Positions 7,131-62,278 of a stretch of 64,000 bases of DNA are shown here, one piece after another (within the stretch, counting starts at the first letter, position 1; every line of letters begins with the position of its first letter). The notes beneath the pieces are model-generated. The model ran no database searches and was not told the origin of the DNA. It saw only the letters and a program-made list of their open reading frames with translations. The position numbers and the translations under genes were made by a program. This stretch comes from Fontibacillus panacisegetis (GTDB lineage Bacteria; Bacillota; Bacilli; Paenibacillales; Paenibacillaceae). The stretch covers positions 62,001-126,000 of the forward strand of contig NZ_FNBG01000001.1 in the NCBI RefSeq assembly GCF_900102215.1, given 5' to 3'.

Positions 7131-7982
7131 TTAGGATAACAATTCTTGAAAAGCCGTTTTAAGTGGCGTTGTTGGATGACCTAATAACTTTTCGAGATCA
7201 TCACTCTCGATGTTTAATTCGCCGTCGCCTATATCTTTTTGAAGAGAAGCTAATAATCCTACAACGGCTTCCGGCATTCCAGTTGAACTTAGCATTTTAC
7301 TATAAGTTTCCAGATCTACATATTGCACCTGAACATCACGATTCATGGCTTCTGCAAAAATGTTGGCGAGCTCCTCCTGAGTTAAAGGTGTGCCTGACAA
7401 TTCATACACAGTATTCTCATGCCCTTCTCCAGTAAGAACACGTGCTGCTGCCTCAGCAAAATCTCTACGCGATGCCCAGCCTATTTTGGCCTCGCCTGTC
7501 GCTATAACCCAAGGCCCACCCTGTAGAACAGACTGGAAGGTAGCCATTTCATTTTCTAAATACCAATTGTTGCGAAGGAATGAATATGGAATCCCTGACG
7601 CTTTGATCACTTCCTCTGTTTCACTATGGCTCTTGGCTAACACTAATTTACTATTTGGAGCATTCGGCGCACTCGTGTATGCGATGAAACTGACATTAGC
7701 TTCTTTTGCAGCTTTTACTGCCGCGGCTTGCTGGTTCACTCGATTTTGCAAATCATCGGTTGAAATTATCAGTAATCGATCAATTCCGGCAAAAGCAGAT
7801 ACCAATGAATTATAATCATTAAAATCTCCTTGTCGTACATCAATGCCTTGTGCGCTTAGATGCTCTGCTTTTTGGGGATCACGTACGCTAACCGCAATAC
7901 TTTCTGCAGGCACTATTTTTAAAAGCTCTTGTACAACTAACGATCCTAAATTTCCAGTTGCTCCAGTCACTAATATTTTCAT
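7131..7982 (-). CDS. NmrA/QorB-like NAD(P)-binding reductase
   Basis: 283 residues from an ATG at 7982, chosen because GGAGGT lies seven bases upstream. The nucleotide-binding motif LVTGATGNLGSLVV is at the N-terminus and the body follows the atypical short-chain dehydrogenase pattern of the NmrA/QorB (YtfG) group: VRQGDFNDYNSLVSAFAGID, then YTSAPNAPNSKL and LRNNWYLENEM. These proteins are NAD(P)H quinone reductases or redox sensors. The gene is divergent from a HxlR regulator, the same pairing as ytfG/ytfH in enterobacteria, so redox or electrophile stress control is a reasonable inference. Confidence 0.85.
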   Translation of the reverse strand: MKILVTGATGNLGSLVVQELLKIVPAESIAVSVRDPQKAEHLSAQGIDVRQGDFNDYNSLVSAFAGIDRLLIISTDDLQNRVNQQAAAVKAAKEANVSFIAYTSAPNAPNSKLVLAKSHSETEEVIKASGIPYSFLRNNWYLENEMATFQSVLQGGPWVIATGEAKIGWASRRDFAEAAARVLTGEGHENTVYELSGTPLTQEELANIFAEAMNRDVQVQYVDLETYSKMLSSTGMPEAVVGLLASLQKDIGDGELNIESDDLEKLLGHPTTPLKTAFQELLS

Positions 7983-8026
7983 TTTATTACCTCCATTTAT
8001 ACAAACCATTGATTAAGGTTTATGTT

Positions 8027-8056
8027 ATTATAGTTATCACAGTTCATTATTAACAA
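8027..8056 (-). promoter_or_regulatory. Promoter of the NmrA-type reductase
   Basis: Read on the minus strand, TTGTTA (8051-8056) and TATAAT (8027-8032) are separated by 18 bases, a good sigma-A promoter 45 bases upstream of the reductase start. Confidence 0.6.
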
Positions 8057-8057
8057 G

Positions 8058-8077
8058 TACGATATATTAATATCGTA
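8058..8077. promoter_or_regulatory. Palindromic operator candidate for the HxlR regulator
   Basis: TACGATATATTAATATCGTA is a near-perfect 20-base palindrome. It abuts the -35 element of the reductase promoter and lies 34 bases before the hxlR-type start, the expected position for an autoregulated HxlR dimer site. Confidence 0.55.
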
Positions 8078-8110
8078 AGTATGTTTTAGTATACTATGGG
8101 AGTGTGAATC

Positions 8111-8455
8111 ATGTCTGAATCTAATTTAACCATACAGGATTGCCCTTATTTTACTGTTCAAAAGGTACTCGCAGGAAAATGGTCCCTGTTGATATTGCAT
8201 TTTTTGAGTGAAAGTACATTGCGATTTAATGAGCTTCAACGAAAGCTGGATAACTTGACACATGCCACTTTGGCCAAACAATTAAAACAATTGGAAGGCT
8301 TCGGGTTAATCATTCGTAAGGAATATCCTCAAGTCCCTCCGAAGGTGGAGTATTCTCTTAGTGATTTAGGCAGAAAGCTCATCCCCAGCTTAGAATCCAT
8401 ATTTGTGTGGGGAGATGAATACCTAAAGTACTCTGTCAGTAAAAATAAAAATTAA
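8111..8455 (+). CDS. HxlR-family winged-helix regulator
   Basis: 114 residues with the complete HxlR domain: CPYFTVQKVLAGKWSLLILHF (with the N-terminal Cys used for sensing in many relatives), then LRFNELQRKLDNLTHATLAKQLKQLE and YPQVPPKVEYSLSDLGRKL. HxlR proteins are dimeric regulators of stress-linked neighbours, often responding to aldehydes, quinones or thiol oxidation through the first Cys. The start has GGGAGTGTG upstream. The divergent partner is the NmrA-type reductase and a palindrome lies between them. Confidence 0.85.
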   Translation: MSESNLTIQDCPYFTVQKVLAGKWSLLILHFLSESTLRFNELQRKLDNLTHATLAKQLKQLEGFGLIIRKEYPQVPPKVEYSLSDLGRKLIPSLESIFVWGDEYLKYSVSKNKN

Positions 8456-8479: not shown

Positions 8480-9439
8480 TTAATAGCCCCACTTCTCACG
8501 AATTGTATCTGCTTCACTCACCATTCTGTCGATCAGCTCTGAAACCGTTGGGATATCATGAATCATGCCAGTAACTTGGCCTGCCCAACCGAATCCTTCT
8601 TCCTTGATGCCATCGTAAATCCATCGCTTGTTGACTTCGCCGCTAATATAGTCCTTTAAAGACTCATAGGTCGGTGAATGATGCTCAATTTCAACAACTT
8701 TATCAGTAAAGTCACTTCGTAATACTCTGGCAGGTGCTCCAATCGAACGTTTAATAACCACTGTGTCAGACTCTGAACTTTCGATTAAAGCATTCTTGTA
8801 TGAAGCAGAAGCATGAATGCATTCCTGGGTAGCGATAAAGCGTGTGCCCATCTCGATTCCCTCCGCTCCAAGAGCATGAGCTGCCATCCATCCGCGACCA
8901 TCTCCGATACCGCCAGAGGCAACGACAGGAATTTTTACCGCATCGACCACTTGAGGAACAAGCACCATCGTACCCACATCATCACGTCCTAAATGTCCTC
9001 CGCCCTCTTGTCCAACAACAATTACGGCAGCAGCACCTAGCTGTTCGGCTTTTTGTGCCTGTCTACGCGTGGAAACGAGCACCAATGCTTTAATATCGGT
9101 AGGCAGCAGCATCTCTAAAATCGGCGCAGGGTTTCCACCTGTAATCGTCACAACGGGTACTTTCTCAGCGATCGCAACTTGTACTCTATCCTCATACCCT
9201 ATACCATGCTGCCCAATGGCAAAATTAACTCCGAAGGGCTTATCTGTCAAAGAACGTGCAAGCTGTATTTCTTGGCGTAATGCATCTGCATCGGGGAGAC
9301 TCATAGCTGTGATTTGACCCAGTCCACCTGCATTCGAAACAGCCGCAGCGAGGTTCGCATAAGCTAAATACGCAAGCCCTCCTTGAACAATAGGATACTG
9401 AATTTGCAACAATTCGGTCAGACGTGTATGCCATTTCAT
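8480..9439 (-). CDS. FabK/nitronate monooxygenase-like flavoenzyme
   Basis: 319 residues from the ATG at 9439 (AAAGGG eight bases upstream; GTG/ATG at 9448/9445 would add two or three residues). The TIM-barrel flavoprotein pattern is clear: YPIVQGGLAYLA, NAGGLGQI, PFGVNFAIG, VVGQEGGGHLG, PVVASGGIGDGRG and GTRFIATQE, the FMN phosphate-binding loops of the 2-nitropropane dioxygenase/FabK superfamily. FabK members reduce enoyl-ACP; nitronate monooxygenases oxidise nitronates. The two are hard to separate by eye. The gene begins 15 bases after the ecfT stop at 9455, so it is the tenth gene of the bioY operon, where an enoyl-thioester reductase would complete the chain-extension set. Function is inferred from context only. 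Confidence 0.8.
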   Translation of the reverse strand: MKWHTRLTELLQIQYPIVQGGLAYLAYANLAAAVSNAGGLGQITAMSLPDADALRQEIQLARSLTDKPFGVNFAIGQHGIGYEDRVQVAIAEKVPVVTITGGNPAPILEMLLPTDIKALVLVSTRRQAQKAEQLGAAAVIVVGQEGGGHLGRDDVGTMVLVPQVVDAVKIPVVASGGIGDGRGWMAAHALGAEGIEMGTRFIATQECIHASASYKNALIESSESDTVVIKRSIGAPARVLRSDFTDKVVEIEHHSPTYESLKDYISGEVNKRWIYDGIKEEGFGWAGQVTGMIHDIPTVSELIDRMVSEADTIREKWGY

Positions 9440-9454
9440 CGCCATCACCCTTTC

Positions 9455-10258
9455 TTACAATCCGCCAAGCTCTAATAAAATAAGAGTCGTCGCAAACAAT
9501 ACAGCTATACCCCCTACCCAATAATCAAGTTGCTGGAATTGCAGCTGTTTATAAACGGTTCTCCCCTTGCCATTCCCGTAAGCTCGTGCATCAATTGCGT
9601 TGGACAACACTTCGGCACGTTGAATGATCGTAAAGAGCAAAGGAATCAAAACCGGAATATAAGCAAAAATTCGTTGAGGCAGCTTTAAAGCTGCTATATC
9701 ATAACCTCTGGCTTTTTGCGCCAAAAGAATACGTTCAAGCTCTTGCATAATCGTCGGAATAAATCGAATCGCAATGACGATCATTAACGAAAATTGTTCT
9801 ACCGGCACGTTTATTCTGGACAGCGGTGACAGCAGCTTTTCCAGACCATGTGCTAATGTTAGTGGTTTAGTAGTTAACGTTAAAATGGAAGCAAGCAAGA
9901 TGAGTAAAACAATACGCCAAACGAAACGTGTCCCGTTGATCAATCCTTCAGCAGTGACCTCTAGGAAAGACAAGGACCAAATTACAGTACCCTTCGTGAA
10001 CAATACATTATAGATAAAAGTAAACATCAAAATGAATAATATGGGCTTTAACCCCTTCGCAAACACGTAAAAAGGAATTTTGGACAACAGCAATATGCTG
10101 ATAACAAAAAAGGTTGCCACTGCATAGCTAAGGAACGTACCCAGCATCAGAAAACTCAGCATGATTATAATCAAACCTAATAGCTTCGTCCTTGGGTCCA
10201 GTCGGTGAAATATGGAATTCGTCTCTAAATATTGCCCCAACAATACGGTATTAGCCAT
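9455..10258 (-). CDS. ecfT: ECF transporter transmembrane subunit EcfT
   Basis: 267 residues, with about five to six hydrophobic segments and the two cytoplasmic coupling motifs of EcfT proteins: AQKARGYDIAAL (ARG) and SNAIDARAYGNG (ARA), near residues 155 and 215. EcfT joins the two ATPases to a substrate-binding S component, here presumably the BioY encoded at the head of the same operon. The start codon directly follows the ecfA2 stop. Most Firmicutes keep one shared ECF module by the ribosomal protein genes; a copy inside a bioY operon points to a dedicated biotin transporter. Confidence 0.9.
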   Translation of the reverse strand: MANTVLLGQYLETNSIFHRLDPRTKLLGLIIIMLSFLMLGTFLSYAVATFFVISILLLSKIPFYVFAKGLKPILFILMFTFIYNVLFTKGTVIWSLSFLEVTAEGLINGTRFVWRIVLLILLASILTLTTKPLTLAHGLEKLLSPLSRINVPVEQFSLMIVIAIRFIPTIMQELERILLAQKARGYDIAALKLPQRIFAYIPVLIPLLFTIIQRAEVLSNAIDARAYGNGKGRTVYKQLQFQQLDYWVGGIAVLFATTLILLELGGL

Positions 10259-11110
10259 TTAGAAGCCCCTTGCATGCCAGATTGGCATTATTTTATCAAA
10301 AATTTCCCGCTCCTTACAGCTATCGACTTCTACCTTCCGGCCGCATAACTGCTCAACCAGCTTTAATAGCTGCACAGGTTCTGGCAATGACAATTCTAGC
10401 TCTTCGAGTAATTCGTTCTTTTCCAGAAATAATTTGCAGGCGTTGAAATGTCCCTTAAGCTGTCCTTTATGAAATACCATAACTTCATCCGAATACTCGG
10501 CAACATCATCCAGTTGATGAGATATGAAAATGATGGTGCGACTTTTATCTTGCTTCTGCCATTGCTGCAGATATTGCAGCAGTGCTGCTCGGCTTAAGGG
10601 ATCGAGACCTGCCGTTGGTTCATCCAGAATAAGCAGCTTCGGATTCATCATCATCACCGAGGCTACAGCTACACGGCGCTTCTGTCCCCCGCTTAATTGG
10701 AATGGAGCGTACGAGAGAATTTCTTCCGACAGCCCAACTTGCGGTAATATAGAATCGATTGCCTCCGTGATCTGCTGATTTGAATAACCCTGTAGCTTCG
10801 CTCCAAAGGCCAGTTCTTTGTATACGCTCGTTTCAAATAACTGATGCTCAGGGTATTGAAAAACGAAGCCTATCTCCGGGATGACCTTAAGTCGTCCTTT
10901 AGTGTCTCTAATAACAGGTTGATCATCAATCATATAGTTTCCGTCAAAAGAGGGGATCAGGCCTTTCAGCACTTTAACGAAAGTAGATTTACCTGCCCCC
11001 GTTTGACCAATAACGGAAATCCATTTGCCCTCCTGGATCGTACAGCTAATGTTTCGCAATGCAGCATGATCATCATAGTTTACGCTTAGATTTTGTAATT
11101 CGTAGACCAT
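10259..11110 (-). CDS. ecfA2: ECF transporter ATPase EcfA2
   Basis: 283 residues from the ATG at 11110 (an upstream start at 11134 would overlap ecfA1 more deeply). ABC ATPase motifs are in order: Walker A GQTGAGKS, Q-loop FQYPEHQLFE, signature LSGGQKRRVA, Walker B LLILDEPTAGLDP, and the switch His in FISHQLDD. The Q-loop spelling and the EcfA2-type C-terminal extension are typical of energy-coupling factor ATPases. It pairs with EcfA1, whose gene ends at 11086, so the two overlap by about 25 bases. Confidence 0.9.
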   Translation of the reverse strand: MVYELQNLSVNYDDHAALRNISCTIQEGKWISVIGQTGAGKSTFVKVLKGLIPSFDGNYMIDDQPVIRDTKGRLKVIPEIGFVFQYPEHQLFETSVYKELAFGAKLQGYSNQQITEAIDSILPQVGLSEEILSYAPFQLSGGQKRRVAVASVMMMNPKLLILDEPTAGLDPLSRAALLQYLQQWQKQDKSRTIIFISHQLDDVAEYSDEVMVFHKGQLKGHFNACKLFLEKNELLEELELSLPEPVQLLKLVEQLCGRKVEVDSCKEREIFDKIMPIWHARGF

Positions 11111-11895
11111 TGCGAAGTAATCATCTCCTTCCAATTTGCCGTTAGCGGAGTTGTTAGATGGAGTTGATGATACAGCCTTACCGCAAAAGGAAGCTCTAGC
11201 TGATAGTCCCCTACGGGAACAGTTTCAAAAAAAGTATAAGGTTCGCCATCAAATATAAGGCGTCCTTGATGCAGCAGCATCACACGGTCAGCCAACAGCA
11301 CTTCATCCATGTGATGAGTAATGTGTACAATGGTCATGCCTTGTTGATTCAGCTCACGCATAATGGACAACACCTGCTTCCTACTCTGTGGATCAAGCAT
11401 GGATGTCGACTCGTCGAAAATAATAAATTGGGGATGCATCGCTAAAATTGCTGCAATAGCTACTCGCTGCTTTTGACCACCGGATAGCTGATGCGGCATA
11501 GCTTCCAGATAATCCTCCATTTGCACGGCTTGTAATGCCTGATGGAGTCGAATGCTGATTTCCTCTCTAGGCACAGAGATATTTTCTAATCCAAACAGCA
11601 CCTCATCCATCACCGTCGTGGTGATGAATTGGTCTTCCGGATTTTGAAACACAAAGCCTAATTGCTTATGAATTTTAGCCAAATCAGCAGGAATTCCTGT
11701 GTCTAGACCATTAAATTTGACACTGCCTTCCTTAGGCAGCAGCAATCCATCCATCAGTTTGGCGATCGTTGATTTTCCGCCACCATTTGCTCCCACAATC
11801 GCTACATACTCGCCTGCAGTGATTGTGAAGCTGATATCCTCGACGACAGGCTGTCCTTTTTTATAATAAAAATGAACATGATCGAACGTAAGCAT
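11086..11895 (-). CDS. ecfA1: ECF transporter ATPase EcfA1
   Basis: 269 residues with Walker A GANGGGKS, Q-loop FQNPEDQF (the hallmark spelling of EcfA1), signature LSGGQKQRVA, Walker B FIIFDESTSMLDP (Ser in place of the usual Pro) and switch His ITHHMDEV. The start ATG shares one base with the stop of the preceding FabG-like gene (TAATG), so translation is coupled to the enzyme genes. This joins transport and enzyme halves of the operon into one unit. Confidence 0.9.
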   Translation of the reverse strand: MLTFDHVHFYYKKGQPVVEDISFTITAGEYVAIVGANGGGKSTIAKLMDGLLLPKEGSVKFNGLDTGIPADLAKIHKQLGFVFQNPEDQFITTTVMDEVLFGLENISVPREEISIRLHQALQAVQMEDYLEAMPHQLSGGQKQRVAIAAILAMHPQFIIFDESTSMLDPQSRKQVLSIMRELNQQGMTIVHITHHMDEVLLADRVMLLHQGRLIFDGEPYTFFETVPVGDYQLELPFAVRLYHQLHLTTPLTANWKEMITSQWSTNYKI

Positions 11896-12716
11896 TATTT
11901 ACTTCCTTTCTGATGATGCAATACCTTAAAAAATGCCTCTATACTATTTTCGGAAAAAACAGGCTCAGGCTTTTGCCACTTCGTTACCTTCGAACCGTTC
12001 ACACCAAATATTTCACCTGATAAATTATCATCCCGCTGTGCCAACAATTCGACTACGAAACGAGCAATATCATCTGCTTCACCTATACGCCAAAACTCTG
12101 GCAAAGGCTCATTTCGGCTTCCATGCTTGCCCTTCAAATGCTCGATCACAGGTCTCGTCATATCCGTTAACGCAGCTGGTGAAATTGCATTTACTCTAAT
12201 ATGTTCACGCTTCAGTTCAGCCGCTAGCGTCCACACTATGCCGAGTATTCCGGCTTTGGCAGCACTGTAATTCACCTGCCCGATTGAACCGGTCAAGCCA
12301 GCCGTTGAGGTCATCAAAAGGATATCGCCACCATTTTTTTGCATATACGGAAGTACACGATTAATGCAATAAAAAGCACCATTCAAATGTACATCAAGTA
12401 CAGAATGCCAATCTTCATCCGTCATACGAGAACATGTTTGGTCATGCAAATTGCCAGCATTATGAATCAATACATCTATACATCCATTCTTAGCCGCGAC
12501 AGTATCCACCATTGCAGTAACTGCTGCCGGATCAGCAACATTGGCACAATACCCAAACGCCGTACCACCAGCCTGAAGAATCTCATCTACAACTTCGTTT
12601 ATCAAAGCTTGCTTTGTACCATTTACAACAACTTGATAACCGGATTGCCCAAGATGTACAGCGATGCTTCGACCTATCCCCCTGCTTGCTCCAGTAATTA
12701 AAGCTACTTTTTTCAT
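11895..12716 (-). CDS. FabG-like 3-oxoacyl reductase (SDR)
   Basis: 273 residues of a classical short-chain dehydrogenase. It has the NADPH motif GASRGIGRS (residues 8-16), NAG at the structural position, and the catalytic Ser-Tyr-x3-Lys in LMTSTAGLTGS and VNYSAAKAG. The core resembles 3-oxoacyl-ACP reductase, with a C-terminal extension of about 25 residues past the usual end. In the operon it would reduce the 3-oxoacyl thioester made by the upstream thiolase-like enzyme. Its start overlaps the MaoC stop by four bases (ATGA). Confidence 0.85.
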   Translation of the reverse strand: MKKVALITGASRGIGRSIAVHLGQSGYQVVVNGTKQALINEVVDEILQAGGTAFGYCANVADPAAVTAMVDTVAAKNGCIDVLIHNAGNLHDQTCSRMTDEDWHSVLDVHLNGAFYCINRVLPYMQKNGGDILLMTSTAGLTGSIGQVNYSAAKAGILGIVWTLAAELKREHIRVNAISPAALTDMTRPVIEHLKGKHGSRNEPLPEFWRIGEADDIARFVVELLAQRDDNLSGEIFGVNGSKVTKWQKPEPVFSENSIEAFFKVLHHQKGSK

Positions 12717-13057
12717 TCAAACCTCTCTTTCGTAGAAAAAATGCCCGAGGCAATCACCTCTTCGGTTTCTGCTGTAACGGTCACCAGGACATTATCATTA
12801 CTTTCCTTAAAGTCAAAAATTACAACAGTTTCTACTAAAAGTGGCTTTTCAAATTTCATACTGTACGCTGTAATCCACTTCATGGGATTTTCGGATAAAT
12901 ACATGGATTGCGCTAGCCCCATGATATACATGCCATGCGCGATTGGACGCCTGAATCCAGCCTTTGCTGCGGCTTCAGCGTTTAAATGAATGTCAGCCCT
13001 ATCCTTAGAAGCTTCTGCATATTGCTGGATAGCTTCAGCTGTTATGCATTTTCTCAT
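12713..13057 (-). CDS. MaoC-like (R)-specific hydratase/dehydratase
   Basis: 114 residues forming one hot-dog domain. The hydratase-2 motif is complete: YAEASKDRADIHLNAEAAAKAG with the catalytic Asp and His, followed by RRPIAHGMYIMG. It should interconvert 3-hydroxyacyl and trans-2-enoyl thioesters. It overlaps its neighbours by four bases on each side. The gene just upstream encodes a second hot-dog half without the catalytic residues, so the active form is probably a heterodimer like mycobacterial HadAB. Confidence 0.8.
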   Translation of the reverse strand: MRKCITAEAIQQYAEASKDRADIHLNAEAAAKAGFRRPIAHGMYIMGLAQSMYLSENPMKWITAYSMKFEKPLLVETVVIFDFKESNDNVLVTVTAETEEVIASGIFSTKERFE

Positions 13058-13434
13058 GCTCCGTCACCTATTAGAATTAATACAGTTTCCGCTGTGACAA
13101 TGTGCTCCTCGTTGCATTTACAGACAAGGGTATGCGTAAAAAGCGTCAGTTCACCCTGTCTGCTCGTCTTTTTCTCTATCTTTGTTAATGATAATTCACA
13201 ATCCAAGATCATGCCTGCACTAATTGGTAGTTCGTATGAAAATGACTGTGAACCATGAATCAAAAGGGTATGCTTCTTCAACCAAGGAATATCAAATTGT
13301 TGCCAGAATATGATTGGCATCGTGACAGGTGCGATCAGAAGGTTGTTTATCGTTTGCAAAGGTGCTTCGATACTTTTGGCATAATCCAGAATCCACTCAG
13401 CGGTGATGTGCAGTCGATGATGGGCAATTGTCAT
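13054..13434 (-). CDS. MaoC N-terminal-type (FAS1-DH-like) hot-dog subunit
   Basis: 126 residues from the ATG at 13434, which overlaps the thiolase stop by four bases. The sequence resembles the non-catalytic MaoC_dehydrat_N hot-dog half: ITAEWILDYAKSIE, then APVTMPIIFWQQFD, LLIHGSQSFSYELPISAGM and LTLFTHTLVCKCNEEHIVTAE. No Asp/His hydratase motif is present. In two-part hydratases this half shapes the acyl pocket. Similarity is recognisable but modest, so the family is inferred partly from the neighbouring catalytic MaoC. Confidence 0.65.
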   Translation of the reverse strand: MTIAHHRLHITAEWILDYAKSIEAPLQTINNLLIAPVTMPIIFWQQFDIPWLKKHTLLIHGSQSFSYELPISAGMILDCELSLTKIEKKTSRQGELTLFTHTLVCKCNEEHIVTAETVLILIGDGA

Positions 13435-14582
13435 AGGGCCGCCTCTACGATGGTCGCGATTCCTAACCCACCGCCAATTCCCAACGTGGCAAGTCCTCTT
13501 TTGTATGGCTGGTGCAGCATTTCTGCACATAAACGAGTCATTAAGATAGCCCCGGATGCACCGTAAGGATGACCGATTGCTAATGCGCCACCGCCACGAT
13601 TGACCTTATTCTCAGGAATCTGGAGTTCCTTCAGTGAAGCCAGCACTTGAGAGGCAAAGGCTTCATTAAACTCTACGATATCCAAGTCGGAAACGGATAG
13701 CTGATGGCGTCTTAGCACCTTTTGAACCGCTGGAACTGGACCAATACCTGAATAATTTGGATCAACACCTGCAGCTTGAGCATCCACTACACGCAAAATA
13801 GGCTTTAGGCCTAGCTCTTCGCATTTTTCACGAGACATCATCAGTACTAGAGCGGCCCCGTCATTGATTGGACAAGCATTGCCTGCTGTTACAGTACCTT
13901 GTTCCTGAAAAATAGACTGCAATTTTTGCAGTTGTTCTATACTCGTATTAAACCTTGGACATTCGTCGGTCGTAATCCATTTTCCTTCAACCTGTAGAGA
14001 GACTATTTCTTGATGGTATCGACCAGTCTGTTGTGCAAAAATGGCTTTTTGGTGGCTTATAAATGCAAATCGATCTTGATCCTCTCTGGAAATCGCGTAT
14101 TTTAGAGCCACATTCTCAGCAGCTATGCCCATATCAGGGTCGCCGTAAGTGCCAGGAGTAAAATGTGCTCGCGTATAGAGCTGAGGTACGCCCGATAAGG
14201 TTTGCGGCTTGAACATTCTCCATGGCGCACGGCTTGTGCTTTCAACACCGCCTGCTAAATAAACTTCACCTGCGCCGCTTTGAATCAATCGTAACGCTAG
14301 ATTGATGGCCTCGAGTCCGGAACCGCACTGCCGATCAATGGTGACACCCGGGACTGTGACAGGAAGCCCCGCTTCCAAAGCAGAAACCCGTGCTATATTA
14401 CCGCCTGGACCAACTACATTGCCAATGATTACGTCATCGATGATTTCCGTGGGTATTTTCGTTTCTGCTACAATATGCTGAATAAGTGGTGCAAGCAATG
14501 CCTCAGGTTCAAGCGTGCCTAGAATGCCGCCGATCTTGCCAATTGGAGTACGCTTTGCCATGACAACGACGACCTCTATCAT
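13431..14582 (-). CDS. Thiolase-like condensing enzyme lacking the second Cys (YhfS-like)
   Basis: 383 residues from the ATG at 14582 (ATGA overlap with the ligase gene). The nucleophile motif TIDRQCGSGLEAI, the NEAFAS motif and the GHPYGASG motif are intact. The last motif, normally C-x-GGG-x-G with the acid/base Cys, reads LGIGGGLG: a Gly (GGA codon) stands where the Cys should be. Thiolases condense or cleave 3-oxoacyl-CoA, and that Cys activates the acetyl-CoA methyl group, so the chemistry may be altered. The gene order bioY-ligase-thiolase matches B. subtilis yhfU-yhfT-yhfS, a BirA-controlled set. Whether YhfS also lacks the Cys I cannot check. Confidence 0.85.
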   Translation of the reverse strand: MIEVVVVMAKRTPIGKIGGILGTLEPEALLAPLIQHIVAETKIPTEIIDDVIIGNVVGPGGNIARVSALEAGLPVTVPGVTIDRQCGSGLEAINLALRLIQSGAGEVYLAGGVESTSRAPWRMFKPQTLSGVPQLYTRAHFTPGTYGDPDMGIAAENVALKYAISREDQDRFAFISHQKAIFAQQTGRYHQEIVSLQVEGKWITTDECPRFNTSIEQLQKLQSIFQEQGTVTAGNACPINDGAALVLMMSREKCEELGLKPILRVVDAQAAGVDPNYSGIGPVPAVQKVLRRHQLSVSDLDIVEFNEAFASQVLASLKELQIPENKVNRGGGALAIGHPYGASGAILMTRLCAEMLHQPYKRGLATLGIGGGLGIATIVEAAL

Positions 14583-16060
14583 ATCATCACTCTTTTCATG
14601 TAGTCTTTCATCGCCTGACGGGCAATTTTCCCACTGCTCGTGTATATAAATTGCTCTACCGTAATGAGTTGCTTCGGGGCTTTGTAGTGAGCTAAATACT
14701 TCCGGCAATAATCTTTAATTTCCTCAAGCGATAGGCTTTGTTGTCCGTTCCATTTTACGAGTGCCGTAAGCTTATCTCCCCAATAATCGTCCGGTACGCC
14801 TAGTACCATTACTTCTTGAATAGCCGGAAGTTGCTGCAGCACAAACTCTATCTCTTCCGGAAAAACGTTAAATCCACCTGACACCATCCTGTTTTTAGCA
14901 CGACCGACCAAATACAAAAAGCCTTCCTTATCCCTATACATATAATCGCCAGTAATCAGCCAACCGTCCTGAAAGACGGCCTCTGTTTCTTCAGGCAGAT
15001 GATAATAGCCTAGAAACATTAGCTCACTTCGAACGAATAGCTGCCCAGTGTGCCCAGTTCGTACCTCCTGAAAATGTTCATCACGAATGGAGATTTCTAC
15101 GCCTGTAAATGGTTTACCTAGTGAATCATTTCTAGTCGCTGTAGTAACGTCCACATAACTAATATAGCTCGCCTCGGATGAGCCGTAAAATTCATATAGT
15201 TTACTTTCCACGAATACTTCTCTACACTTTTGCTTTGACGCCTCTGACCACTTACCGCCCGAGCTAATCAACGCTTGAATGAATGTCTGATCGGATGATG
15301 CCAGCTGTAGCATGGATTCAATCATCGTTGGCACAACAAACATAATGACATTGGGTATCTGCTGGCACAGCTTCAACACTTTTGCGGCATTAAAATACTG
15401 CACGATATGAAAGGTCACTCCATTGTAAAGACTCTGCAATAAAGCGAATAATGACAACGAATGAACAAATGGACCTGGAGCTAAAATATGCTCCATATCG
15501 TTCAGCTGGAATGCTTCCTTTGTTGCTTCAAAACTTTTGATCCACGATGCATGAGTACGCATATACCCTTTTGGTGTACCTGTTGTGCCTGACGTAAAGC
15601 CGATGAATAATAATTCGTTACTATCATCGAGTTTTGCCTCGGTATTTAAACGATCTAACCATAAGTCATAAGAACCTTTTTCTCCATCTGAGAAGATGTA
15701 AAGCTTTTTCTCTAGATCCTGTAGGACTGGATTGTTTGCAAATGCAGTTTCAGTAAAAATCAATTTAGGCTGAGTCTGCTCTAAAATAGCTTTTATTTCA
15801 TTGGAACTCCATTTTGGGTCCACAGGAATTGGAATACACCCTGCATAAATGGCCCCTAGAAAAACCTCCACAAATTCTATTCGATTCGTACTCAAAATGG
15901 CGACATGGTCATGAATGAGTCCATTTTGCTGCATGCCCTCTGCAATTTTTTTCATTCTCTGAACTAATTCCATGTAAGTCAGGCTCTTTAGGCCCTCGGA
16001 TAAAGCAATTGTTCTGGGCTGCTTGATAGCATGTCTTAATATCGGCTCTACTAGATTCAT
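14579..16060 (-). CDS. Acyl-CoA ligase, AMP-forming (YhfT-like)
   Basis: 493 residues from the ATG at 16060, six bases after AGGTGA (a GTG at 16069 is the alternative). All adenylate-forming motifs are visible: FIGFTSGTTGTPKG (phosphate loop), YEFYGSSEAS, ITGDYMYRDKEGFLYLVGRAKN and GGFNVFPEEIE, with the C-terminal catalytic Lys in SSGKIARQAM. It should activate a free carboxylic acid to its CoA thioester. It is the first enzyme after bioY in a BirA-controlled operon. The acid is unknown; a dicarboxylate such as glutarate or pimelate, or a fatty acid, would fit a biotin-precursor role. Confidence 0.85.
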   Translation of the reverse strand: MNLVEPILRHAIKQPRTIALSEGLKSLTYMELVQRMKKIAEGMQQNGLIHDHVAILSTNRIEFVEVFLGAIYAGCIPIPVDPKWSSNEIKAILEQTQPKLIFTETAFANNPVLQDLEKKLYIFSDGEKGSYDLWLDRLNTEAKLDDSNELLFIGFTSGTTGTPKGYMRTHASWIKSFEATKEAFQLNDMEHILAPGPFVHSLSLFALLQSLYNGVTFHIVQYFNAAKVLKLCQQIPNVIMFVVPTMIESMLQLASSDQTFIQALISSGGKWSEASKQKCREVFVESKLYEFYGSSEASYISYVDVTTATRNDSLGKPFTGVEISIRDEHFQEVRTGHTGQLFVRSELMFLGYYHLPEETEAVFQDGWLITGDYMYRDKEGFLYLVGRAKNRMVSGGFNVFPEEIEFVLQQLPAIQEVMVLGVPDDYWGDKLTALVKWNGQQSLSLEEIKDYCRKYLAHYKAPKQLITVEQFIYTSSGKIARQAMKDYMKRVMI

Positions 16061-16088
16061 CTCGATCACCTGTTTTAAATCTGAATAA

Positions 16089-16643
16089 CTATGAATGTTG
16101 TACTTTTTCTTCTATCGGACTGACAGCTTTTAATTGAACCGCAATAATGGCTGCGATAATGGCTTTAATACAATCTCCAGGCAGAAATGCAGTAGCTCCG
16201 ACAAGTCCAGCCCAAACCGAGGTATGCGTAATAAGGGCCATCACTGGAGCACCAATTAAACTAATAAGCACAACGCCGAACACAAAATTAATGATGACTA
16301 CTTTCCACGTTCTTAACGTTGACCATACCTTTTCAGTCATATATCCGATACAAAATACAGCGATTGGCCAGCTTAAGAAGTATCCGACAGTTGGTCCTGC
16401 AAAAACGGAAAGACCTCCCCGTCCACCAGATAATAAAGGTAAACCTAGTGCGACTAATACGATAAATAAAATTACGCTTAGCGTACCTGTTTTCTTTCCT
16501 AAAAAGCATCCTGCAAGTATAACACCTAAGGTTTGTGTAGTGATCGGTACTGGAATAAAGCCAAGTGGAATTGGTGGAATCATGCCTAATACACCTATTA
16601 ATGCAGCGAATAACGCAGCGAATACCATTTCTTTTGTTTTCAC
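16089..16643 (-). CDS. bioY: Biotin transporter S component BioY
   Basis: 184 residues from a GTG at 16643, chosen because GGAGG precedes it by seven bases. Six hydrophobic segments and the BioY signatures are present: FIPVPITTQTLGVILAGCFLG (residues 31-51), SGGRGGLSVFAGPTVGYFLSW and FLPGDCIKAIIAA near the end. BioY binds biotin and is energised by EcfA1-EcfA2-EcfT, all encoded later in this operon. A BirA operator lies 90 bases upstream, so biotin sufficiency should repress the whole operon. Confidence 0.95.
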   Translation of the reverse strand: MKTKEMVFAALFAALIGVLGMIPPIPLGFIPVPITTQTLGVILAGCFLGKKTGTLSVILFIVLVALGLPLLSGGRGGLSVFAGPTVGYFLSWPIAVFCIGYMTEKVWSTLRTWKVVIINFVFGVVLISLIGAPVMALITHTSVWAGLVGATAFLPGDCIKAIIAAIIAVQLKAVSPIEEKVQHS

Positions 16644-16732
16644 ACTGATACCTCCGTTGATATGGAAAAATAATAAACTTACAAAGAGTCGACATCTATG
16701 TAATGAATAAATCATAGCTTGATAGACTTCTA

Positions 16733-16765
16733 TTGTAAACCATAAATTTAAATTTAGGTTAACAA
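16733..16765 (-). promoter_or_regulatory. BirA operator upstream of bioY
   Basis: Two inverted half-sites TTGTAAACC (16733-16741) and GGTTAACAA (16757-16765) are separated by 15 bases. This matches the known BirA half-sites (TTGTNAACC ... GGTTNACAA with 14-16 bases between), with one mismatch between the arms. BirA bound to biotinyl-AMP represses biotin genes through such sites. It lies 90 bases upstream of the bioY start. Confidence 0.9.
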
Positions 16766-61609: not shown

Positions 61610-62278
61610 TTAAACCTCCATCCCATTACAAAAGTTCATACTTGGCATCGAAATATCTCCTCTTGCCATCCCGTCCATTCCATAAAGAACAGGGTAAGGC
61701 AAATCTTCTATGTCAGCGGCTTCTCTTGTATGTGTCAGTTTCTCGATATCTTCTGCTGTCGGTTCACCGAACACATCATTAATTAAAATGCTGAAGCAAG
61801 ATTTGTAAGGATGGCCATCAGGCAAATAATCAGCAATTTTTTTAGTGGCAACTGACAATCTTCTCTCCAGCGCCTTAATGTGAACATTATCATTCGAAAC
61901 TGCGAGCAGCTCGTAAAGTGCAGGGATGTAGTCAGCAAGCTCACCATACGCTGGAGTAAATCCTGCATCCGCAATAATATTTTTTAGTAAAATGAGCGCC
62001 GCCCCTCGATCACGACTATCACCAAGCTCCATCGCAGTCAAATAGAGACCTGTATCTTCCTTCATATCAAATGTTGTGACATATAGCTCTTGCAGCTCCA
62101 TTACCGTATTACCGCACAGTTGACTTAGTGCTAATGACAATCCTTGCTTGAGATCATCACCCAGAGGCCATTCTTGAATAGCCATCAATATTCCATTCCG
62201 TTCATCTGGAAAGCAATGATCCGGATACCCGATCATTCGTGCTACAGCAGCCAGAATGAATCTCTTCTCCTCGTTCAT
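61610..62278 (-). CDS. narJ: Nitrate reductase assembly chaperone
   Basis: 222 residues of the TorD/NarJ family: YPDHCFPDERNGILMA, then LQELYVTTFDMKEDTGLYLT (the conserved FD-x-x-x-x-x-L-YLT motif), ELADYIPALYELL and LPYPVLYGMDGMA. It inserts the molybdenum cofactor into NarG and is not part of the final complex. It overlaps narH by four bases. Confidence 0.9.
   Translation of the reverse strand: MNEEKRFILAAVARMIGYPDHCFPDERNGILMAIQEWPLGDDLKQGLSLALSQLCGNTVMELQELYVTTFDMKEDTGLYLTAMELGDSRDRGAALILLKNIIADAGFTPAYGELADYIPALYELLAVSNDNVHIKALERRLSVATKKIADYLPDGHPYKSCFSILINDVFGEPTAEDIEKLTHTREAADIEDLPYPVLYGMDGMARGDISMPSMNFCNGMEV

Follow-up and report, generated by a model that had tools for sequence, protein, structure and literature searches.

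Why should a bacterium place a complete biotin importer and a suite of coenzyme A (CoA)-linked enzymes behind what looks like one biotin-responsive switch? The question is raised by ten adjoining genes of Fontibacillus panacisegetis, contained in a 64,000-nucleotide stretch of contig NZ_FNBG01000001.1 (NCBI RefSeq assembly GCF_900102215.1, forward-strand positions 62,001 to 126,000; hereafter the window, in whose own numbering positions are given). An initial annotation of this DNA had read the enzymes as one round of chain extension, for example from glutaryl-CoA and acetyl-CoA to pimeloyl-CoA, a precursor of biotin, with scavenging of a biotin-related acid as the runner-up. Here we describe the ten genes as a single operon with a BirA-type operator and tentatively predict that it serves biotin salvage, in which the shortened side chain of a biotin-like acid would be grown back.

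A ten-gene operon with a conserved BirA-type operator

The genes occupy positions 8480 to 16643 of the minus strand in the order bioY, acyl-CoA ligase, thiolase-fold enzyme, two MaoC halves, FabG-like reductase, ecfA1, ecfA2, ecfT and FabK-like flavoenzyme, all of them present in the order and on the strand first annotated, and their products were assigned to families by Pfam and NCBIfam profile matches (Table 1). With the ligase open reading frame (ORF) taken from 16063, the nine intergenic gaps measure 25, -4, -4, -4, -4, -1, -49, 0 and 6 bases; the likely ligase start at ATG 16060 widens the first of them to 28 bases, the largest spacing among the ten genes, and the close packing noted earlier is thus borne out, with neighbors that either overlap or lie at most 28 bases apart. 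The start of bioY is most likely GTG 16643, with GGAGG upstream, and not the ORF start at 16715. By profile matches, BioY, two ATPases and the T component make up a complete biotin-type energy-coupling factor (ECF) transporter; BioY is a single match in the whole host genome, which further holds seven EcfT-family matches, so that the ECF module of the operon is one of several.

Related loci were collected by alignment of the noncatalytic MaoC half with the contigs of named genomes, which matched 108 stretches and led to 28 confirmed loci, by title 21 from Paenibacillus, four from Psychrobacillus, two from Cohnella and one from Rummeliibacillus. Followed across these genomes, it is the five-enzyme core more than the full ten-gene order that persists: ligase-thiolase-MaoC-MaoC-FabG is kept in all 28 (tblastn; L020 and L027 have broken reading frames). 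BioY accompanies it in 23 loci, the ECF module in 25 and a FabK-like match, partial in two cases, in 20; the full set of ten is present in 16.

The operator shows no mismatch to the half-sites used, which upholds the BirA-type site originally placed before bioY. In a scan of the host genome (5.26 Mb, 99.88% complete) at spacing 15 with up to three mismatches allowed, it is the only site with fewer than three, and the one further site, with three, does not rise above the reversed-pattern control, which gives five. The host BirA itself, 323 amino acids long, combines an HTH_11 domain (E 9.3e-16) with biotin ligase (BPL) domains. Across the loci, 20 of 28 show an operator with at most one mismatch 60-167 bases upstream of the first gene, and one with at most two mismatches is present in 21 of the 28 leaders versus 0 of 1264 control windows of 400 bases taken from the same loci, three of which reach three mismatches. 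Chance occurrence of the operator is ruled out by these genome-scan and control-window comparisons together with its conservation. Three loci (L018, L028 and L029) have no BioY or ECF genes beside the enzymes, yet carry a one-mismatch operator 82-167 bases before the ligase, so that, to judge from these leaders, the enzyme genes look like BirA regulon members in their own right. A plain transport operon with unrelated neighbors was also considered and was rejected because the five-enzyme order never varies and the operator is kept in these three loci without bioY. Together, these observations support the proposal that one operon unites a biotin-type ECF transporter with a CoA-linked set that reads as one extension round.

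Two further features of the surroundings deserve mention. Five loci encode, directly after ecfT, a protein of 102-108 amino acids that is absent from the window (L008:13979-14305, L009:13978-14304, L012:13979-14287, L016:13979-14287 and L023:13980-14303), and that in its L009 copy belongs to the CHY zinc fingers (PF05495, E 3.9e-12). Next to the operon on its downstream side, at window positions 7131-8455, are a divergent HxlR-type regulator and an NmrA-like NAD(P)-binding protein, for which no biotin link was seen.

Table 1. The operon and its operator in the window, with the bioB loci of four operon genomes in locus coordinates (FMN, flavin mononucleotide; NMO, nitronate monooxygenase; SDR, short-chain dehydrogenase/reductase)
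Feature	Position	Strand	Evidence or remark
BirA-type operator TTGTTAACC-N15-GGTTTACAA	16733..16765	-	89 bases before bioY GTG
bioY, ECF substrate-binding component, 184 aa, GTG start	16089..16643	-	PF02632 E 3.9e-36
AMP-forming acyl-CoA ligase, YhfT-like	14579..16060	-	PF00501 E 2.5e-66, PF13193
Thiolase-fold condensing enzyme, YhfS-like	13431..14582	-	PF00108/PF02803; TIGR01930 over cut-off
Noncatalytic MaoC/hot-dog half, HadA-like, FAS1_DH-type	13054..13434	-	PF13452 E 7.8e-6
Catalytic MaoC half, (R)-hydratase/dehydratase type	12713..13057	-	PF01575 E 6.5e-14
FabG-like SDR reductase, 273 aa	11895..12716	-	PF00106 E 4.5e-49; FabG models below cut-off
ecfA1, ECF ATPase	11086..11895	-	TIGR04520 314.9 bits, cut-off 315
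ecfA2, ECF ATPase, TTG start, internal start possible	10259..11134	-	TIGR04521 273.5 bits, cut-off 330
ecfT, ECF transmembrane component	9455..10258	-	PF02361 E 1.8e-35
FabK/NMO-like FMN enoyl reductase	8480..9448	-	TIGR03151 285.5 bits, cut-off 453.1; PF03060
bioY-bioB pairs (three) or lone bioB (one)	L066:8176-9778, L067:8705-10323, L068:7355-8964, L065:8904-9911		BirA-type site upstream

Operon genomes are poor in the biotin synthesis genes searched for

The initial annotation had suggested looking for hosts that lack bioW and the other entry routes and retain bioFADB. Our genome-wide searches took in bioB, bioD and bioW, not bioF, bioA, bioI, bioC, bioH or bioZ, and covered 28 operon genomes, namely the host and 27 others (L023 is not included). 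The first part of that expectation agrees with what we find for bioW, absent from all 28; the second does not, as bioD over its cut-off (83.3 bits) is likewise found in none, the B. subtilis controls for both genes having been recovered. Weak bioD matches of at most 32 bits occur in 16 of the 28, in reading frames of 277-567 amino acids. For bioB (TIGR00433) the best score in the host genome is 39.6 bits against a cut-off of 225, and 23 of the 27 others also have no match over the cut-off, which leaves four operon genomes with the gene.

Without bioD and mostly without bioB, these genomes could not take pimeloyl-CoA on to biotin by the known route, and a pathway ending at pimeloyl-CoA would be without purpose. 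The reaction types of the operon would permit a new start of biotin synthesis from glutaryl-CoA and acetyl-CoA, and the absence of bioW agrees with one, but this host gene content and the negative association of bioB with the operon, given below, led us to reject it: barring unrecognized enzymes for the missing steps, the reading is largely refuted, and we consider it highly improbable. BioZ, BioW, BioI and BioC-BioH are known routes to pimeloyl thioesters. They likewise supply a biotin-related acyl thioester, and BioZ is also a condensing enzyme; they differ in feeding BioF-A-D-B, of which BioD finds no counterpart over cut-off in the operon genomes. Two options are then left, that the operon helps obtain biotin from something imported or that it helps the cell live with less biotin.

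In the four genomes that do have bioB, no bioA, bioF or bioD was seen beside it (by eye, from ORF starts). Three of them place bioB after a second bioY (confirmed by Pfam in one genome and judged by eye in two) with a BirA-type site of two or three mismatches upstream, and the fourth has a lone bioB behind a perfect BirA-type site; in genomes without bioD over the cut-off, such arrangements are probably devoted to dethiobiotin salvage.

A broader sample of 295 host-family genomes contains 27 strong matches to the operon MaoC half (E 6e-44 or better; one of them, G295, with an in-frame stop) and seven weak ones, and bioB is present in 145. The gene is found in one of the 27 operon genomes versus 144 of the 268 without a strong match (Fisher p 1.5e-7), the latter becoming 138 of 261 when the seven weak-MaoC genomes are dropped. 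These seven (G092, G117, G134, G194, G214, G231 and G236; bioB in six) were first suspected of carrying the same operon and were counted as lacking it because their hits are single proteins of 300-355 amino acids near a different cluster. Since the Fisher tests are not corrected for shared ancestry, we also give the count within the host genus, whose members were counted by hand: bioB is present in none of eight genomes with the operon versus 21 of 32 without it (p 0.001), the latter group holding five weak-MaoC rows, minus which it stands at 16 of 27. There is overlap between the family sample and the 28 named genomes (G256 and G017 have the same bioB place), so that the two counts are not independent.

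Biotin auxotrophy is real in the genus of Paenibacillus sonchi, as its genomovar Riograndensis SBR5 is described as an experimentally established biotin auxotroph that is cured by bioWAFDBI (PMC10789242). Given the single BioY, the biotin protein ligase and the lack of the tested synthesis genes, the importer is presumably the host’s biotin supply. Lactococcus lactis is likewise reported as an auxotroph relying on BioY and BirA (PMC4861984), but CoA enzymes are not mentioned with its BioY scavenging in the parts of that source at hand, unlike in the operon described here.

A thiolase-fold enzyme with glycine in place of its base

The YhfS-like protein has most of the attributes of a canonical thiolase: it exceeds the cut-off of the subfamily model TIGR01930 (432.4 bits vs. 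240.55) and keeps the nucleophile Cys86, the NEAFA motif at 306-310 (Asn306) and the GHP motif at 337-339 (His338). What it lacks is the catalytic acid/base Cys of the CxG motif, replaced by Gly368. Gly occupies this position in 27 of the 27 readable rows of a 29-row alignment, by pattern in 119 of 120 listed database relatives (one is not matched), and in all 50 aligned rows, taken from the 30 YhfS-model loci with the highest scores and from 20 fetched regions and representing 31 distinct genomes, the window’s own included; the three PDB alignments shown have Cys. The residue after GHP is Tyr in 112 and Phe in eight of the 120 relatives versus Leu, Val or Ile in the same three PDB alignments. 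The protein scores 430.7 bits with the YhfS model PRK06690, under the cut-off of 498, and 11 relatives over that cut-off likewise have Gly at the CxG position. In the Zoogloea ramigera thiolase the CxG Cys is described as the base that abstracts the substrate proton (PMC3406046), so that a residue needed for acetyl-CoA condensation has been lost. The standard thiolase condensation with acetyl-CoA that was first assumed is therefore doubtful, and database names such as acetyl-CoA acetyltransferase are, by their active-site residues, probably misleading for the YhfS-like thiolases examined. Possible outcomes of the Gly are a decarboxylative condensation with malonyl-CoA, which needs no base, the use of a different base, or acyl hydrolysis or transfer.

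The ligase finds its best NCBIfam match in PRK07638 (429 bits, cut-off 518) and carries both the FTSGTTGTPKG loop and the C-terminal SGKIAR lysine. Asp19 and His24 of the catalytic MaoC half are invariant in 32 of 32 rows, and its 25 PDB matches include MaoC dehydratases, HadB and an R-specific hydratase; this D-x4-H hydratase dyad is not seen in the alignment of the noncatalytic half, which matches HadA chains weakly (E 0.0089). The flavoenzyme, with FabK 7l00 as its best PDB match (E 1.5e-70), has the EGGGHLG His motif and scores below the FabK equivalog cut-off. FabK-type enzymes normally reduce, and the FabG, R-type MaoC and FabK relatives resemble the reductive style of fatty acid synthesis and not that of beta-oxidation, a direction also argued for on stereochemical grounds; by its families, then, the set favors building. 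In the FabG-like protein, the His of a VHL motif is invariant across a 29-row alignment and stands at what we take to be the Asn position of the SDR catalytic tetrad.

Related families carry out reduction, dehydration and enoyl reduction in the type II fatty acid synthesis (FAS-II) cycle (FabG, HadA-HadB and FabK). Unlike FAS-II, however, the genes described here include a CoA ligase and a thiolase-fold starter and form one short operon with a BirA-type site, and their FabG and FabK relatives stay below cut-offs. The same pairing of a catalytic and an inert MaoC half is known from the steroid side-chain hydratase ChsH1-ChsH2, in which the inert partner is reported to accommodate bulky rings (PMC11321319), and by this analogy the inert half of the operon suggests a bulky substrate. 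ChsH1-ChsH2 nonetheless belongs to a degradative mycobacterial pathway and is absent by name among the PDB matches listed for the MaoC halves.

These enzymes also bear on the second of the options above, a biotin-sparing lipid metabolism in which exogenous fatty acids would be activated and lengthened via CoA thioesters, without malonyl-CoA, when biotin is scarce and acetyl-CoA carboxylase fails. Its appeal is that the BirA-type site suits a response to biotin shortage, that the ligase and reductase families are fatty-acid types and that auxotrophs would need such a pathway most. It would require, however, a thiolase that condenses acetyl-CoA, and with the base Cys replaced by Gly in every readable homolog the loss speaks against fatty acids made from acetyl-CoA alone; the enzymes moreover sit in one operon with a biotin-type ECF importer, and the inert MaoC half suggests a bulky substrate. 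On balance we find lipid sparing unlikely.

The wider YhfS family and a second cluster

BirA control of bioY and yhfS-yhfT has been demonstrated in Staphylococcus aureus (PMC6391492) and is stated to operate in both B. subtilis and S. aureus (PMC11089781), and the order BioY, AMP-forming ligase and Gly-type thiolase of the Bacillus bioY-yhfT-yhfS set recurs in several genomes of the class. Compared with that set, or with the yhfT-yhfS pair of Staphylococcus, the operon in the window adds two MaoC halves, FabG, FabK and the ECF module. Of 299 genomes sampled across the class, 62 reach 1e-100 or better with the YhfS model, which also matches its B. subtilis control. Among 20 fetched regions, several hold BioY-ligase-thiolase, three have ligase-thiolase but no BioY, and still others contain FabG or FabK in addition. 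From the 62 genomes, 28 were picked mainly by score, with four ten-gene-operon genomes left out; the ligase is a neighbor in 19 of them (the 19 fetched), and bioB is present in 23, versus four of the 28 genomes with the extended operon (Fisher p 5.6e-7). It is thus only the extended operon that goes with the absence of bioB, and the core also serves bacteria that have bioB.

The host family further holds a second cluster (copies L109, L113, L119-L125 and L127-L130), in which a BioY 48-51% identical to that of the operon and EcfA1-EcfA2-EcfT are joined by an adenine-deaminase-like amidohydrolase, a ligase, a Gly-type thiolase and FabG, along with a glycosyltransferase, other genes, an acyl-CoA dehydrogenase and a convergent double MaoC (Pfam was run on the G117 copy only). 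No BirA-type site was seen at its bioY in the four stretches read (G092, G117, G134 and G194), nor was FabK in the stretches read. The bioY leaders of L129 and L130 share an AT-rich repeat (TTGACAT...ATGTCATTATTGTGTCAA) in place of a BirA-type site.

This cluster shows that the module is reused, perhaps for another substrate, and cautions against assuming biotin chemistry wherever it occurs. Its reuse of BioY, ECF, ligase, thiolase and FabG without a BirA-type site lends some color to the idea that the operon, too, handles a different imported carboxylic acid needed at low biotin, its BioY carrying neither biotin nor biotin fragments; a lone BioY in a host with a biotin protein ligase and none of the tested synthesis genes is hard to square with this, and we regard it as quite improbable. 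The acyl-CoA dehydrogenase of the second cluster also speaks for an oxidative or detoxifying form of editing, in which biotin-like acids whose side chains are longer, unsaturated or oxidized, antimetabolites included, would be shortened or repaired to biotin. Enzymes of these types are able to work as a beta-oxidation-like cycle, and even with its base Cys lost a thiolase might cleave or hydrolyze a 3-oxoacyl thioester. Such editing is nevertheless improbable in our estimate: the ten-gene operon has no acyl-CoA dehydrogenase, its FabK relative belongs to a type that normally works in the reducing direction, and we know of no common natural biotin with a longer chain.

Discussion

Among the readings weighed above, we prefer the one in which the operon rebuilds biotin from an imported, degraded form. 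Scavenging of a biotin-related acid fits the data better than pimeloyl-CoA synthesis, and it would probably proceed by rebuilding and not by breakdown, as a repressor that responds to biotin should free its genes for expression at low biotin, which makes the breakdown of biotin for food unlikely. The substrate that we infer is a biotin-like acid whose side chain has been shortened. Bisnorbiotin is the most likely candidate, being a biotin metabolite that is commonly excreted and is reported to account for 13-23% of total biotin in human 24-h urine (PMC9106636). More specifically, it is possible, albeit on the doubtful side, that bisnorbiotin or tetranorbiotin is imported and regrown by one or two CoA-linked two-carbon rounds, with the condensing enzyme acting on malonyl-CoA.

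In such a pathway, BirA would leave the operator when biotin is scarce, BioY-EcfA1A2T would import the shortened acid and the ligase would convert it to its CoA thioester. On the thiolase-fold enzyme, Cys86 would carry the acyl group for condensation with a two-carbon donor, which may be malonyl-CoA given that the enzyme lacks the base required for acetyl-CoA. Reduction of the 3-oxo group would then fall to the FabG-like enzyme and dehydration of the 3-hydroxyacyl-CoA to the MaoC pair, whose noncatalytic half would make room for the bulky ring; saturation of the double bond by the FabK-like flavoenzyme would finally yield biotinyl-CoA. Free biotin could possibly be released by thiolase hydrolysis, or the ligase could run in reverse to biotinyl-AMP, the BirA intermediate.

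Several points weigh against this proposal. The condensation step is nonstandard and the weakest link of the pathway, and given Gly368 it may not be the reaction of the thiolase-fold enzyme at all. The operon encodes no thioesterase and no obvious enzyme for the release of free biotin, and FabK is absent from eight of the 28 loci. The bulky substrate is suggestive only, because the HadA match is weak and Had-type pairs handle long chains. The identity of the substrate is deduced and the direction of the pathway is read from enzyme families; with an acyl-CoA dehydrogenase and no FabK in the second cluster, the redox direction of the operon is not certain either. YhfS-type Gly thiolases in genomes with bioB indicate that the core function is not tied to auxotrophy. 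Finally, the operator that precedes most copies of the operon does not precede them all: L015 and L020 have neither a bioY hit nor a BirA-type operator in the leader, the gene upstream resembling, by eye, what is presumably a queuosine-precursor-type membrane transporter, and the four Psychrobacillus leaders contain only weak operator sites or none at threshold.

In the literature searched (titles and the starts of abstracts, with few subscription journals), we found no description of bacterial regrowth of shortened biotin. In B. subtilis and S. aureus the yhfT-yhfS pair is known to belong to the BirA regulon, with a function that the sources at hand call only putative. In the operon described here the pair forms part of a full enzymatic cycle, and it does so in genomes in which it cannot serve biotin synthesis by the known route. 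If the proposal is true, it would represent a vitamin-regeneration pathway of a new type that would also explain yhfT-yhfS, microbial assays and auxotrophy predictions would have to allow for the salvage of shortened biotin, and bacteria would be able to recover part of the biotin that animals and microbes break down.

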